A stretch of DNA of 64,000 nucleotides, taken from Bacteroidota bacterium. GTDB lineage: Bacteria; Bacteroidota; Bacteroidia; Palsa-948. The notes under the pieces are model-generated. The model ran no database searches. It was not told the DNA's origin and worked only from the letters and a program-made list of their open reading frames with translations. The position numbers were made by a program, and so were the translations under genes. Location: assembly GCA_016213405.1 (NCBI GenBank), contig JACRAM010000088.1, positions 1 to 64,000 on the forward strand. Direction: 5' to 3'. Positions 41,985 to 60,540 of this stretch are shown here, piece after piece; within the stretch, counting starts at the first letter, position 1, and every line of letters begins with the position of its first letter.

Positions 41985-42460
41985 TTTTACCGCAGAGAAC
42001 GCGGAGGTTTACGCAGAGAACCACAGAGTTAATATTTATTTACTACTCTTCTGATTCCATCAGTTAATTTCAGAACGTTAAAATTAATCAATAGCCCGAC
42101 TTTACAGTTCGCTAATTTGAGATAGGTTAAAATTTGTGCAAGGTGAATATCATTCAGCGCCTCTATGGATTTTACTTCAACAATTACTTTTTTGTTTGCA
42201 GATAAATCTGCACGATAACCACATTCCAATTTCACTTCTTCATAAATTAGCGGTAGAGGTCTTTGTCTTTCAATCTCCAAGGGAGTTTTGCATAACTCAT
42301 AATACAAACACTCTTCATATGCTGACTCTAACAAACCAGAACCAAGTGCCTTGTGAACTTTAATTGCACATCCAATAATTATTTCCGTTATTTCGTTTTC
42401 AGTCATTGTATTTCTCAGCGATTCTCTGCGTGTAGTTTTCTCTGTGTTCTCTGCGTTTAA
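41985..42460. mobile_element. GxxExxY cassette 1 bounded by inverted repeats
   Basis: The left arm (41985-42032) contains ACCGCAGAGAACGCGGAGG and ACGCAGAGAACCACAGAG. The right arm (42411-42460) is its imperfect reverse complement (CTCTGTGTTCTCTGCGTTTA). The gene between them ends with its stop codon inside the left arm. A gene-less pair of the same arms lies at 43157-43262. Confidence 0.7.
42029..42406 (-). CDS. GxxExxY protein, PD-(D/E)XK nuclease-like
   Basis: The 125-residue protein has the family signature GLLESAYEECL (GxxExxY). It also has a PD-(D/E)XK-like core: YRADLSANKKVIVEVKS gives Asp, then Glu-x-Lys. It ends in ILTYLKLANCKVGLLINFN, which is typical of the family. Its biochemical function is not established. 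The gene occupies the whole interval between two inverted CGCAGAGAAC repeat arms, and a second family member in this window (fused to paaI) has a comparable arrangement with different arms. Confidence 0.9.
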   Translation of the reverse strand: MTENEITEIIIGCAIKVHKALGSGLLESAYEECLYYELCKTPLEIERQRPLPLIYEEVKLECGYRADLSANKKVIVEVKSIEALNDIHLAQILTYLKLANCKVGLLINFNVLKLTDGIRRVVNKY

Positions 42461-55423: not shown

Positions 55424-56013
55424 GATTTTGTTTTTTTCCAGGTTGAAAAATTATTTTTTTGAATTTTTGATTTCTTAGAGATTTCTCTTAGTGGTTTACA
55501 TTCTTTCATAGTATTGAAATACACAGCAGGAAGATTCTGGTAGATAGAGGTTCCTTTTGTTTTCCATTCGAGCATTTTGTCTGTAACATCTTTAATAATC
55601 TTTGCGGGATTTCCAACCACCACTTTACGCTCTGGTATTATCATTCCTTCCGGAACCAACGTAAGCGCACCAATTACTGAATTATTTCCAACTACCGCAT
55701 TGTCCATAATTACTGCGTTCATACCCACTAAAACATTTTTTCCAATTGTTGCGCTGTGAATAATTGCTCCATGCCCGATGTGAGCGCCTTTTTTTAACCT
55801 GACAGTGATTCCCGGAAACATATGAATGATACAGTTTTCCTGAACATTGCAACCATCTTCGATAATAATTTTTCCGAAATCTCCGCGAATGGCAGCACCT
55901 GAACCGATAAAAACATTTTTACCGATAATCACATTTCCAGTCACGGAAGCAAGCCGGTGAATGAAAGATGTTTCGTGAATGACGGGTTTGTATCCTTTGA
56001 ATTCGTAGATCAT
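55420..56013 (-). CDS. paaY: PaaY-type gamma-carbonic-anhydrase-fold thioesterase
   Basis: The 197-residue left-handed beta-helix protein has hexapeptide repeats (VTGNVIIGKNVFIGSGAAIRGDFG, AHIGHGAIIHSATIGKNVLVGM) with metal-binding histidines. PaaY is a thioesterase that rescues stalled CoA intermediates of the phenylacetate pathway. Sequence alone does not separate it from other gamma-carbonic-anhydrase-like proteins, but its overlap with paaJ supports the call. Confidence 0.88.
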   Translation of the reverse strand: MIYEFKGYKPVIHETSFIHRLASVTGNVIIGKNVFIGSGAAIRGDFGKIIIEDGCNVQENCIIHMFPGITVRLKKGAHIGHGAIIHSATIGKNVLVGMNAVIMDNAVVGNNSVIGALTLVPEGMIIPERKVVVGNPAKIIKDVTDKMLEWKTKGTSIYQNLPAVYFNTMKECKPLREISKKSKIQKNNFSTWKKTKS

Positions 56014-57215
56014 GCTTTCTCAATCACAACGGCAAATCCTTGTCCAACGCCAATACATAAAGTGACGAGCGCGTATTTTTTATTCTGCTCCTGCAATTCA
56101 ACCGCTGCTGAATTCAGAATTCTTGCTCCGCTCATTCCGAGAGGATGACCAAGTGCAAGCGCGCCACCATTCGGATTTATTCTTGGATCATTATCAGCCA
56201 ATCCAAACGAACGTGTGCAAGCAAGCGACTGTGCGGCAAATGCTTCATTAAGTTCAATAATGTCCATATCGCTTATTTTCAATCCTGCTTTTTTCAGCGC
56301 ACGATTGCTCGCTTCCACAGGACCGATTCCCATAATGCGTGGCTCCACACCAATAACTCCGGATGAAACAATTCTTGCCCTAGGTTTCAGATTATATTTT
56401 TTTATTGCCTCTTCTGAAGCAAGAAGAATTGCACAGGCACCATCATTAAGCCCTGAAGAATTTCCGGCAGTCACCGAACCGTCTTTTCTGAAAGAAGGTT
56501 TCAGTTTGGAGAGAATTTCCATAGAAGTATCCGGCTTTATGAATTCATCCGTGTCAAAAATTTTCGGATCACCTTTCCTTTGGGGAATTTCAACTCCAAC
56601 AATTTCCTTTTTTAATCTCCCATTCTTTTGAGCGGCTGTTGCTTTCTGCTGGCTCCACAAGGCAAACTTATCCTGATCTTCTCTTGCAATTTTATCACGG
56701 TCCATCAAATTTTCAGCGGTCTCCCCCATTCCATCTATGCCGTACATTTCTTTCATCTTCGGATTAATAAATCTCCATCCGAAACTTGAATCAAACATCT
56801 GTGCGTCTCTTCCAAAAGCTGTAGAAGTTTTTGAAATCACCCAGGGACCACGTGTCATGTTCTCTACTCCACCGGCAATCATTAAGTCAGCGTCACCAAC
56901 CATAATCGCTCTTGCTGCGGAAATACTTGCAGACAAACCCGAAGCGCATAAACGATTTACGGTTTCGCCCGGAACAGAATATGGAAGTCCGGCAAGAAGC
57001 AAACTCATTCTCGCAACATTGCGATTGTCTTCTCCTGCCTGATTCGCACAGCCGAGAATAACATCTCCGATTTCTGTCGGATCAACAGAAGAATTTCTTT
57101 TCATCAGTTCTTTCAGAACGATTGCAGCCATGTCATCGGTACGAACAACTGATAATGTTCCTCCGAAATTTCCGATTGGAGTTCTGATTCCGTCTATTAT
57201 ATATGCTGATTTCAT
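56010..57215 (-). CDS. paaJ: 3-oxoadipyl-CoA/3-oxo-5,6-dehydrosuberyl-CoA thiolase PaaJ
   Basis: PaaJ cleaves 3-oxoacyl-CoA intermediates to acetyl-CoA, finishing phenylacetate breakdown. The 401-residue protein has the nucleophile C90 in NRLCASGLSA, the histidine in NPNGGALALGHPLGMSG and the second cysteine in TLCIGVGQG. RGPWVISKTSTAFGRDAQMFDSS-like sequence is typical of PcaF/PaaJ rather than biosynthetic thiolases. It overlaps paaY by four bases. Confidence 0.93.
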   Translation of the reverse strand: MKSAYIIDGIRTPIGNFGGTLSVVRTDDMAAIVLKELMKRNSSVDPTEIGDVILGCANQAGEDNRNVARMSLLLAGLPYSVPGETVNRLCASGLSASISAARAIMVGDADLMIAGGVENMTRGPWVISKTSTAFGRDAQMFDSSFGWRFINPKMKEMYGIDGMGETAENLMDRDKIAREDQDKFALWSQQKATAAQKNGRLKKEIVGVEIPQRKGDPKIFDTDEFIKPDTSMEILSKLKPSFRKDGSVTAGNSSGLNDGACAILLASEEAIKKYNLKPRARIVSSGVIGVEPRIMGIGPVEASNRALKKAGLKISDMDIIELNEAFAAQSLACTRSFGLADNDPRINPNGGALALGHPLGMSGARILNSAAVELQEQNKKYALVTLCIGVGQGFAVVIEKA

Positions 57216-57216
57216 A

Positions 57217-57714
57217 GGTACAGATAACAGATTTATTGCAGATTTACAGATTATACCAATTCAAAATTCACTACTCGTTTTATTTTCACTTGGTTATTTG
57301 AAAAATTAATAAGTAATGCCAATTTTAGCTTTGAAACTTTTAAATAATTCAATACCTGATCGAAATGGGCTTTTGAAAATTGACCCAATGCTTTAAGTTC
57401 AAGAATTATTTTTTCATCTAATAAAAAATCCAAATAGTTCTTTCCTATTGTTTCATCATACATTTTAACAGGGTAATAAACATTTTCAGAAAACTTCATC
57501 TGATTCTTTTCTATCAATGACTTTAATGCCCGATGATAAACAATTTCCTTTTGTCCACCACCAATTTGATTAAAGACCTCATAAGCCAATCCTATAATTT
57601 TATATGTTAAGTCGGAATATAAAAACTCTTTAGATCCAGAATCTGATCTTGTTACAATTACATCCTGCTGCATTTCTTCTTCTCTGTAAATCTGTGTCGA
57701 TCTGTTATCTGAAC
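57217..57714. mobile_element. GxxExxY cassette 2 bounded by inverted repeats
   Basis: The left arm (57217-57252) reads GGTACAGATAACAGATTT then GCAGATTTACAGATT. The right arm (57682-57714), reverse complemented, reads GGTTCAGATAACAGATC then CAGATTTACAGA. The inserted unit of about 500 bases carries only the GxxExxY gene. The stop codon (57251-57253) lies at the inner edge of the left arm, just as in cassette 1, although the arm sequences of the two cassettes are unrelated. Confidence 0.7.
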
Positions 57715-58135
57715 CCTCTGGGAACCATTCTTTGCTTGTGCGGTAAACTGTTCCTTTGAAGAAGGCAACGTTTTCTTTTTTTTGATTTTTTATTTCAATA
57801 AGATACGTTCCTGTTTTATTTGTGAGTGAAAGTTCTTTCGCTTCGCATGTTATAATATCGTCTTCTTTTACAGCCACAGGAAATGAAATGGAACAATCCA
57901 GCGCAACACATAGTCTTCCTTGTGCATTGGAAGCAAAAGCCAGTGCGCTATCTGCAAAAGAAAAACAAATCCCTCCATGTGCGCTTCCCATACCATTAAG
58001 CATTTCTTTTCTGATTTTCATTCGCAGAATACAATGCCCCTGCTCGATCAGCACGCGTTCAATGCCGAGCCACTGACTGAACCAGTCGATGTCGTACATA
58101 TTATCGACAATTTTTTTTGCTAACTCTTTACTCAT
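57251..58135 (-). CDS. paaI: PaaI thioesterase fused to a GxxExxY nuclease-like domain
   Basis: Residues 1-140 are a complete hot-dog-fold PaaI acyl-CoA thioesterase, with GMGSAHGGICFSFADSALAFAS carrying the catalytic aspartate. Residues of about 142-158 (SDNRSTQIYREEEMQQ) are the translated right arm of an inverted-repeat cassette. The rest is a GxxExxY domain with GGGQKEIVYHRAL and a PD-(D/E)XK-like core (KNYLDFLLDEKIILELKA). An internal ATG at 57671-57673 could start the GxxExxY protein on its own. The natural reading is that the cassette landed at the 3' end of paaI and removed its stop. Overlaps with ogt upstream, and its place just before paaJ, keep the paa context. Confidence 0.88.
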   Translation of the reverse strand: MSKELAKKIVDNMYDIDWFSQWLGIERVLIEQGHCILRMKIRKEMLNGMGSAHGGICFSFADSALAFASNAQGRLCVALDCSISFPVAVKEDDIITCEAKELSLTNKTGTYLIEIKNQKKENVAFFKGTVYRTSKEWFPEGSDNRSTQIYREEEMQQDVIVTRSDSGSKEFLYSDLTYKIIGLAYEVFNQIGGGQKEIVYHRALKSLIEKNQMKFSENVYYPVKMYDETIGKNYLDFLLDEKIILELKALGQFSKAHFDQVLNYLKVSKLKLALLINFSNNQVKIKRVVNFELV

Positions 58136-58617
58136 ACAAATAATTCCTTTTGAATTAATACACCTTCAAATTCCAACAACCATTTCTTTTTATCCAGTCC
58201 ACCTTCATAACCAATTAAATCGCCATTAGAGCCGATTACACGATGGCAGGGAACAATAATTGAAAAAGGATTTCTCCCGTTTGCTGTTCCTGCTGCGCGT
58301 ATGCATTTTTTATCGCCTAATCTTATCGCGAGTTGCAAATACGAAATTGTTTTTCCGAAAGGAATGTTCAGCAGTTCTTTCCAGACTCTTTTCTGAAAAT
58401 CGGTTCCGTGCATATCAAGTGAAACAGAAAAGGTTTTTCTTTCTTTAATAAAATATTCGTGAATCTGGCGAGCGCATGCAGAAGTATGTTCATTATTCTT
58501 TGCCCTGCCTGAACGCTTCTTTATAAACGGGACTGCAATAACTCCTTTATCATTCGCTATAATCTCAAGAAGTCCAACAGGTGATTCGTAATATGTTTTA
58601 TAGATAGCTTTTTCCAT
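58132..58617 (-). CDS. ogt: Methylated-DNA-[protein]-cysteine S-methyltransferase
   Basis: This suicide repair protein removes O6-alkyl groups from guanine. The 161-residue protein has the active-site motif IVPCHRVIGSNG followed by LIGYEGGLDKKKWLLEFE. The helix-turn-helix segment KRVWKELLNIPFGKTISY lies before it. It resembles Ogt rather than Ada, since no N-terminal Ada domain is present. It overlaps paaI by four bases. Confidence 0.95.
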   Translation of the reverse strand: MEKAIYKTYYESPVGLLEIIANDKGVIAVPFIKKRSGRAKNNEHTSACARQIHEYFIKERKTFSVSLDMHGTDFQKRVWKELLNIPFGKTISYLQLAIRLGDKKCIRAAGTANGRNPFSIIVPCHRVIGSNGDLIGYEGGLDKKKWLLEFEGVLIQKELFV

Positions 58618-59976: not shown

Positions 59977-60540
59977 ATGAAATATAATCCTGCTATACAT
60001 AATCGCAAATCGTTCCGTCTGAAAGGATATGATTATTCGCAGGAAGGATTGTATTTCATTACGATTTGCATTAAAGACCGCGAATGTTTGTTTGGTCGAA
60101 TTGTAGGGACATCGCATGCGATGTCCAATAAAAAAATGGTTTTATCCGAAATAGGAAAAATTGCTGATGAATATTGGTTGGCAATTCCGAAACATTTTCC
60201 GAATGTTGTTTTACACGAACATATAATAATGCCAAATCATATTCACGGGATTATTGAAATATCGTTTGTCCCCGTTGTTGTAGGGACACGACATGTCGTG
60301 TCCCTACCAGAACCAACGCAACGGCAATTTTCAAAACCCATTGCGGGTTCTATTTCGGTAATGGTGCAACAATATAAATCATCGGTGACGCGGTGGTGCA
60401 ATAAAAACGATGTAAAACATTTTGAATGGCAATCGCGATTTCATGAACACATTATCCGAAACCAAAAATCATTTGAACGGATTTCAAATTACATTGCGAA
60501 CAATCCGGAAAATTGGGAAAAGGATGATTTCAATTCATGA
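59977..60540 (+). CDS. REP-associated tyrosine transposase (TnpA-REP, Y1 family)
   Basis: The 187-residue protein is a single-strand HUH-type transposase/endonuclease of the IS200/IS605-related REP class. The HUH-region motif is HIIMPNHIHGII, the catalytic tyrosine is in SVMVQQYKSSVTRW, and the C-terminal signature is WQSRFHEHIIRNQKSFERISNYIANNPENW. Two perfect palindromes are part of the coding frame (GTSHAMSNKK and VVVGTRHVVSLPE), and a third lies downstream. Such enzymes are thought to mobilise REP-like hairpins. No flanking IS ends were recognised, so it is probably a domesticated single-copy type. Confidence 0.92.
   Translation: MKYNPAIHNRKSFRLKGYDYSQEGLYFITICIKDRECLFGRIVGTSHAMSNKKMVLSEIGKIADEYWLAIPKHFPNVVLHEHIIMPNHIHGIIEISFVPVVVGTRHVVSLPEPTQRQFSKPIAGSISVMVQQYKSSVTRWCNKNDVKHFEWQSRFHEHIIRNQKSFERISNYIANNPENWEKDDFNS
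60107..60126. repeat. Perfect 20-bp palindrome inside the transposase gene
   Basis: GGACATCGCATGCGATGTCC is its own reverse complement and is preceded by GTAG. It encodes GTSHAMSN in the transposase. Confidence 0.85.
60280..60307. repeat. Perfect 28-bp palindrome inside the transposase gene
   Basis: The half-site is GTAGGGACACGACA, and the second half is its exact reverse complement. It encodes VGTRHVVSLP. It shares the GGGACA / TGTCCC ends with the neighbouring palindromes. Confidence 0.85.

Follow-up and report, generated by a model that had tools for sequence, protein, structure and literature searches.

A PaaI–GxxExxY gene fusion as one instance of an apparently undescribed class of inverted-arm cassettes in the Bacteroidota

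Background

How did a PaaI-type thioesterase come to share one reading frame with a GxxExxY protein, and is the DNA that links them particular to this locus? The question is raised by contig C88 of a 3.65-Mb draft Bacteroidota genome (G000; 127 contigs), from which a stretch of 64,000 nucleotides, here termed the window, was analysed. A preliminary description had read the locus as a snapshot of a mobile unit creating a gene fusion. The PaaI fusion exemplifies a by-product that recurs within a widespread class of cassettes, and it is this class, rather than the fusion, that is the real finding. The class is apparently undescribed, phylum-wide and embedded in operons. The protein family is annotated without a function, and no description of the arm architecture was found in the papers searched on GxxExxY, TIGR04256, PDDEXK_3 and the arm sequences.

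Anatomy of the fused open reading frame

The fused frame belongs to a minus-strand operon that also includes an ogt-type gene, which was used for the species tree, and a thiolase gene (Table 1). Profile searches place PF03061 (4HBT) over residues 49-122 and PF13366 (PDDEXK_3) over residues 175-288 of the fused product (E 7e-29; 101 bits against a cut-off of 22), bearing out the in-frame joining of two domains that had been proposed. The product belongs to the TIGR04256/PF13366 family by profile score (TIGR04256, 105.9 bits; cut-off 35) and by the invariant GxxExxY, D and ExK residues, while it scores slightly below the cut-off of the PaaI equivalog model (105; cut-off 119). The catalytic-type residues of the GxxExxY domain (GxxExxY, D, ExK and Q) are intact.

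The GxxExxY gene is carried on a unit of 499 bp (57217-57715), close to the 500 bases first estimated, between inverted arms composed of CAGAT words. The left arm (57217-57250) reads GGTACAGATAACAGATTTATTGCAGATTTACAGA and directly adjoins the GxxExxY stop codon, while the right arm (57683-57715), read on the minus strand, is GGTTCAGATAACAGATCGACACAGATTTACAGA and is translated as G-SDNRSTQIYREEE; as had been suggested, this arm is the linker of the fused frame (GSDNRSTQIYREEE). Scored against all swapped partners, the two arms rank first as a pair; together with the recurrence of the arm pattern and the transcript fold described below, this speaks against a chance arrangement. The proposal that an internal ATG could yield the GxxExxY protein alone holds at the sequence level, in that the ATG at 57671-57673 opens a complete GxxExxY frame.

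Table 1. Coordinates of the fused frame, its cassette and other features of the window
Feature	Position	Strand	Basis and remarks
Fused ORF PaaI-linker-GxxExxY	57251..58135	-	294 aa; ORF call
PaaI-type hotdog thioesterase portion	57713..58135	-	141 aa up to the arm; profiles
GxxExxY gene from internal ATG	57251..57673	-	TIGR04256 / PF13366 PDDEXK_3 profiles; invariant residues
Left inverted arm	57217..57250	+	Four CAGAT words, spacing 7, 11 and 8 nt
Right inverted arm and leader	57674..57715	-	Arm 57683-57715 and 9-nt purine-rich leader; linker GSDNRSTQIYREEE
Thiolase (acetyl-CoA acyltransferase) gene	56010..57215	-	ATG 1 nt past left arm; flanks empty site
ogt-type methyltransferase gene	58132..58617	-	Upstream, same direction; conserved neighbour
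Second GxxExxY cassette of the window	41990..42460	-	Arms of CGCAGAG words; orthologues at the same site in G001 and G004
RAYT-like ORF	59977-60540		NCBIfam E 5e-11, below cut-off; without CAGAT arms

The paaI junction in related genomes

Comparison of the paaI end in six congeners revealed three further states of the site. The junction is empty in G001 and G003 (WFPENK* TAA TT ATG, the ATG being that of the thiolase gene), so that uninterrupted paaI, lacking the unit, does occur in close relatives; G002 and G005 carry gene-less palindromes (CTCTGTG words and a GTCATTGCGAG REP, respectively), and G004 and G006 a separate GxxExxY gene. The empty state (L087, L088 and L093) and gene-less palindromes (L091 and L092) recur in more distant Bacteroidia. 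Among 20 further genomes of the class, a GxxExxY gene occupies the junction in G128 and G086 and is fused to paaI in G072, a member of another family, whose 289-aa product likewise runs through the arm. Family- and order-level PaaI searches returned the same seven genomes and none further. Outside the genus, GxxExxY genes occur at about three of the 12 intact paaI junctions, against 0.3-0.6% expected under an even spread over gene junctions; the expectation depends on assumed per-genome counts of cassettes and of junctions, and the comparison still contains phylogenetic dependence.

Set against the empty sites of G001 and G003, the unit stands in place of the paaI stop codon, as had been claimed. 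No target duplication can be seen in this comparison, although the junction itself has changed as well: about 11 nt, the ancestral codons N-K-stop and the following TT, are missing at the filled G000 site. The tail of PaaI is encoded by the arm at all six filled junctions, where the residues following KxW read FSD-DTNNE* (G004), FPS-DTNSE* (G006), FPK-GADNE* (G086), EAE-NTNNESIQINKTN... (G128), DVTNSESLRINE-M (G072) and FPE-GSDNRSTQIYREEE-M (G000). In the unfused G004, G006 and G086 junctions the PaaI stop lies inside the arm (GAA TAG or GAA TAA), within the spacer that follows word two, whereas the same codon position in the fused junctions is AGA TCG or GAA TCG, with no stop; whether fusion or separation results thus depends on the arm sequence. 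In G128, PaaI reads through the arm, yet a stop precedes the GxxExxY gene. The PaaI fusion is therefore, on comparison of the junctions, a by-product of the arm sequence and not a special adaptation. The snapshot reading stands insofar as the unit is absent from close relatives and its arm forms the linker, and mobility over evolutionary time is strongly indicated, but the fusion is not a one-off event.

That the six GxxExxY genes of the junction arose only once was rejected (AU p 9e-7), as was a single clade for the three of this genus (AU p 7e-4), which implies that the paaI junction has been re-used or that cassettes have been exchanged at one edge. The edge is identical in most of the filled junctions, so that cassettes may have been exchanged at one ancient site. 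Another gene junction, shared by G000 and G006 (L014 and L042), holds GxxExxY genes of two protein clades with different arm words and looks as if its cassettes had been exchanged.

Fusions through the arm extend to other enzymes. In-frame read-through of an arm has produced a Dxr-GxxExxY protein of 606 aa in G006 and an LpxD-GxxExxY protein of 498 aa in G003, and the Dxr and LpxD parts are complete enzymes by NCBIfam. At the G006 locus L072, the arm between Dxr and GxxExxY is amplified into a tandem protein repeat linker (DANAAKKDELMPTTQT). A further, N-terminal fusion, of GxxExxY to RecQ, is conserved in three genomes of the genus g28 (L197, L198 and L199).

Inverted arms across the Bacteroidota

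TIGR04256 was present in 29 of 61 genomes of the phylum and in none of 14 control genomes. A survey of 132 GxxExxY loci in about 35 Bacteroidota genomes showed that most of the genes lie between inverted arrays of the 5-mer word C-N-R-A-K, with about four words per array, mostly spaced 8-10 nt apart. Every one of the 11 PF13366 genes of G000 lies between inverted arms, and the arms of each gene repeat a word of their own. The median local score of own arms was 44 at 47 loci of the genus, against 26 for swapped pairs, and 44 against 24 at 86 further loci from TIGR04256-bearing genomes of the phylum. Identity between the two arms varied with word position (C.84, N.58, R.89, A.94, K.92; spacer.67), while control words were flat, with no position pattern. 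The N position, at.58 against.67 for the spacer, is thus as free as spacer, and the other four bases of the word are held, a pattern that fits word recognition better than it fits the maintenance of a perfect stem. The CNRAK word was derived from the same data later used for its test, an objection that weighs least on the unconstrained N position and on the clade comparison given below.

Four word classes can be distinguished (CNAAG, CNGAG, CNGAT and CNAAT), mostly with one class per cassette (within-cassette homogeneity.75 against a null of.46). On the protein tree the class changes 16 times, compared with 43.5 times when shuffled (minimum 37) and 38.2 times when shuffled within genomes (minimum 29), and outside this genus 13 times against 24.1. 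Word class therefore follows the protein tree and not the genome, and all four classes are found within one genome. Across families, the share of pairs with the same class is.67 at amino-acid identities of at least 60% and.10 at 20-29%. The same CNAAG arms occur on a GC-rich viral contig (L293), and arms with CNGAG words on a Bacteroides finegoldii plasmid (L292). On a Sphingomonas plasmid (L289), a GxxExxY gene lies between fabD and fabG, with only a CGCGAAG arm remaining upstream; the right arm was not found.

The GxxExxY protein

Residues invariant in A1 include GxxExxY, D70, E80-x-K82 and Q94. A three-sequence AlphaFold model (pLDDT 76) has the helix and strand order of the PD-(D/E)XK fold, and its leading structural matches are mostly to that superfamily (4ic1, Z 7.8; BglII, 7.3; the archaeal Hjc, 6.6), with SSO0001 (Cas4 type), EcoRV and a tRNA-splicing endonuclease among the others; all Z scores are middling, below 8. 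Judged by the core fold of the model and its D...(D/E)xK residues, GxxExxY is a predicted member of the PD-(D/E)XK superfamily. No solved structure related to it by sequence was found, and Rfam gave no match. GxxExxY was absent from 50,697 phage records, while viral contigs yielded none by two protein scans and one (L293) by DNA pattern; a phage origin is consequently not favoured.

Genomic position, selection and gene-less palindromes

Seventy-nine of 101 cassettes are flanked by two co-directional genes and lie in sense with them, and two are antisense in such a pair (p 3e-21). The stop codon of the upstream gene falls inside the arm in 36 of 85 cases. Between same-site orthologues dN/dS is.01-.08 wherever dS is unsaturated, the second cassette of the window giving 0.01-0.04 against its counterparts in G001 and G004. 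These values indicate that the GxxExxY protein is kept by strong purifying selection and, together with the sense position in operons, suggest that it is probably expressed by read-through. Same-site orthologues persist past synonymous saturation, which suggests that movement of the cassettes is rare.

G000 contains 34 copies of the arm pattern GTACAGATAACNGAT, against none for reversed-pattern controls. CAGAT-type ends number 46 in G002 and two to 11 in other genomes, and mostly belong to 82-bp palindromes that enclose a GGCTGTTT loop and are scattered over unrelated sites; about 20 such gene-less copies, with the same ends as the cassette, are present in each of G000 and G002. The left arm of the window unit matches the dispersed palindromes at 91-95%. 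No GxxExxY cassette with these ends was found in G002 beside its 46 palindrome ends, which argues against strict pairing of enzyme and repeat within one genome, and a simple correlation between palindrome copies and matching cassettes failed on this genome. The orthologous site of one gene-less palindrome, in G003, lacks the palindrome and holds a different insert, with no clean footprint. CAGAT palindromes frequently lie inside larger palindromes that wrap them (TATTCCGAATAAGAAACAGTA...TAATCGGAATA; gataaattagtacattctacaagtg...), and these wrappers constitute a distinct family of repeats.

Origin of the cassettes and comparison with known systems

Each cassette comprises a putative PD-(D/E)XK nuclease gene, apparently promoterless, flanked on either side by an inverted array of about four CNRAK words. 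Its product, probably acting as a multimer, may recognise the words of its own arms in double-stranded DNA or in an extruded form (hairpin or cruciform). Such recognition would let the segment bounded by the arms, and likewise gene-less palindromes that share its ends, move into tight junctions between genes, where read-through would express the cassette. At the junction of paaI and the thiolase gene, insertion would have replaced the paaI stop by an arm; read in the frame of paaI, this arm contains no stop codon (AGA TCG, not GAA TAG/TAA) and would be translated as a linker into GxxExxY. That the unit at 57217-57715 is a copy of such a long-lived mobile class, with word-array recognition, spread and fusion by arm read-through, is given about an even chance. 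It is suggested by the existence of empty sites, the different cassettes at one site (L014/L042 and the paaI junction), the gene-less palindromes with shared ends, the pairing of own arms, the coupling of word to clade, the sense orientation in operons, the purifying selection and the PD-(D/E)XK fold matches; against it, no transposition and no target duplication were seen, G002 has the repeats but no cassette with those ends, same-site orthologues are long-lasting, and the CNRAK word was tested on the data that defined it. More tentatively, and with somewhat less than an even chance, GxxExxY cassettes may form a distinct type of prokaryotic mobile unit, characterised by an iterated, clade-specific 5-mer word code that a PD-(D/E)XK nuclease reads in the inverted arms, sense homing into operon junctions and repeated arm-linker chimaeras.

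Alternatively, the cassettes may act in RNA, as intervening sequences whose arm stem in the operon mRNA is cut by RNase III or GxxExxY, so that the cassette is excised or separated from the neighbouring messages as in 23S rRNA, the DNA having spread by another route. The predicted transcript fold of the window unit (z -3.5), in which the arms pair around the ORF in both the minimum-energy and centroid structures, and the sense-only orientation in operons speak for such a role. So does the likeness to 23S rRNA intervening sequences, which have a patchy presence and a small ORF within a complementary terminal stem, that of Coxiella having a 28-bp stem, RNase III excision and GACAGAT-type heptamer repeats (PMC4990558); four-helix genes of this kind (23S_rRNA_IVP, PF05635) sit in analogous arms in the same genomes. 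However, a stem would favour complementarity of the N base and the spacers, which is not kept, and the Dxr, LpxD and PaaI fusions require an uncut message. From 23S rRNA intervening sequences the cassettes differ in their protein and in lying between, or fused to, protein genes (here paaI and the thiolase gene) and not in rRNA, with constraint on word bases instead of full stem pairing. The RNA-level explanation is considered unlikely. PF05635 genes outnumber GxxExxY genes (80 in seven genomes, 23 of them in G000), and their arms (L217-L246; 11 loci parsed) use other words (GTTCAAGG, GGTAATT and TTACAGG).

Strong purifying selection, long persistence at the same site and word-protein coupling would also be expected of a nuclease that benefits its host in repair, defence or autoregulation, the arms being operator sites and the cassette seldom moving. 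This leaves the dispersed gene-less palindromes, the many paralogues per genome and the patchy site occupancy unexplained, and PADLOC and PHROGs gave no convincing match, the defence side offering only a weak Cas4 hit (E about 0.01), so that a host role of this kind seems rather improbable. The palindromes could instead be REPINs, inverted REP doublets (PMC3116915), moved by a RAYT transposase with GxxExxY as passenger, and a RAYT-like ORF does lie 2 kb away; it scores 42.6 bits against a cut-off of 80 and lacks such arms, however, and a shared trans-acting RAYT does not predict that word class follows GxxExxY clade, not genome, making this quite improbable. Least probable, and very much so, is an assembly or base-call artefact in a metagenome-derived genome: the draft state of G000 and the repetitive element invite the suspicion, but arm, gene and both flanks match unfused relatives codon by codon, and independent in-frame arm fusions occur in G072 (PaaI), G006 (Dxr) and G003 (LpxD).

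Among known systems, the cassettes would by analogy work most like REPIN-RAYT, with an unrelated nuclease and without being a member. Both combine short, inverted palindromic units, hairpin-capable doublets with many non-coding copies in extragenic locations, and one enzyme lineage per repeat type in long co-evolution. The REPIN-RAYT enzyme is a HUH/Y1 transposase, whereas no cognate Y1/HUH transposase lies beside the present repeats and the gene in the loop is PDDEXK_3, PD-(D/E)XK-like; iterated CNRAK-word arms, many paralogous cassettes per genome and sense orientation in operons also set the cassettes apart. As in MITEs, gene-less derivatives share their ends with gene-bearing copies, but there is no transposase of a known type and no target duplication was seen.

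Significance

GxxExxY genes are common in the Bacteroidota (29 of the 61 sampled genomes), and no function is known for them; the rule that describes their arms offers a concrete, testable substrate for their product and ties these genes to the unexplained short palindromes of the same genomes. Should the nuclease read the word code, the cassettes would represent a second, unrelated solution to the problem solved by REPIN-RAYT and would provide a natural set of nuclease/target pairs. Read-through of the arms may further show how mobile DNA can, by simple means, append domains to essential enzymes, such as Dxr and LpxD, without abolishing them.
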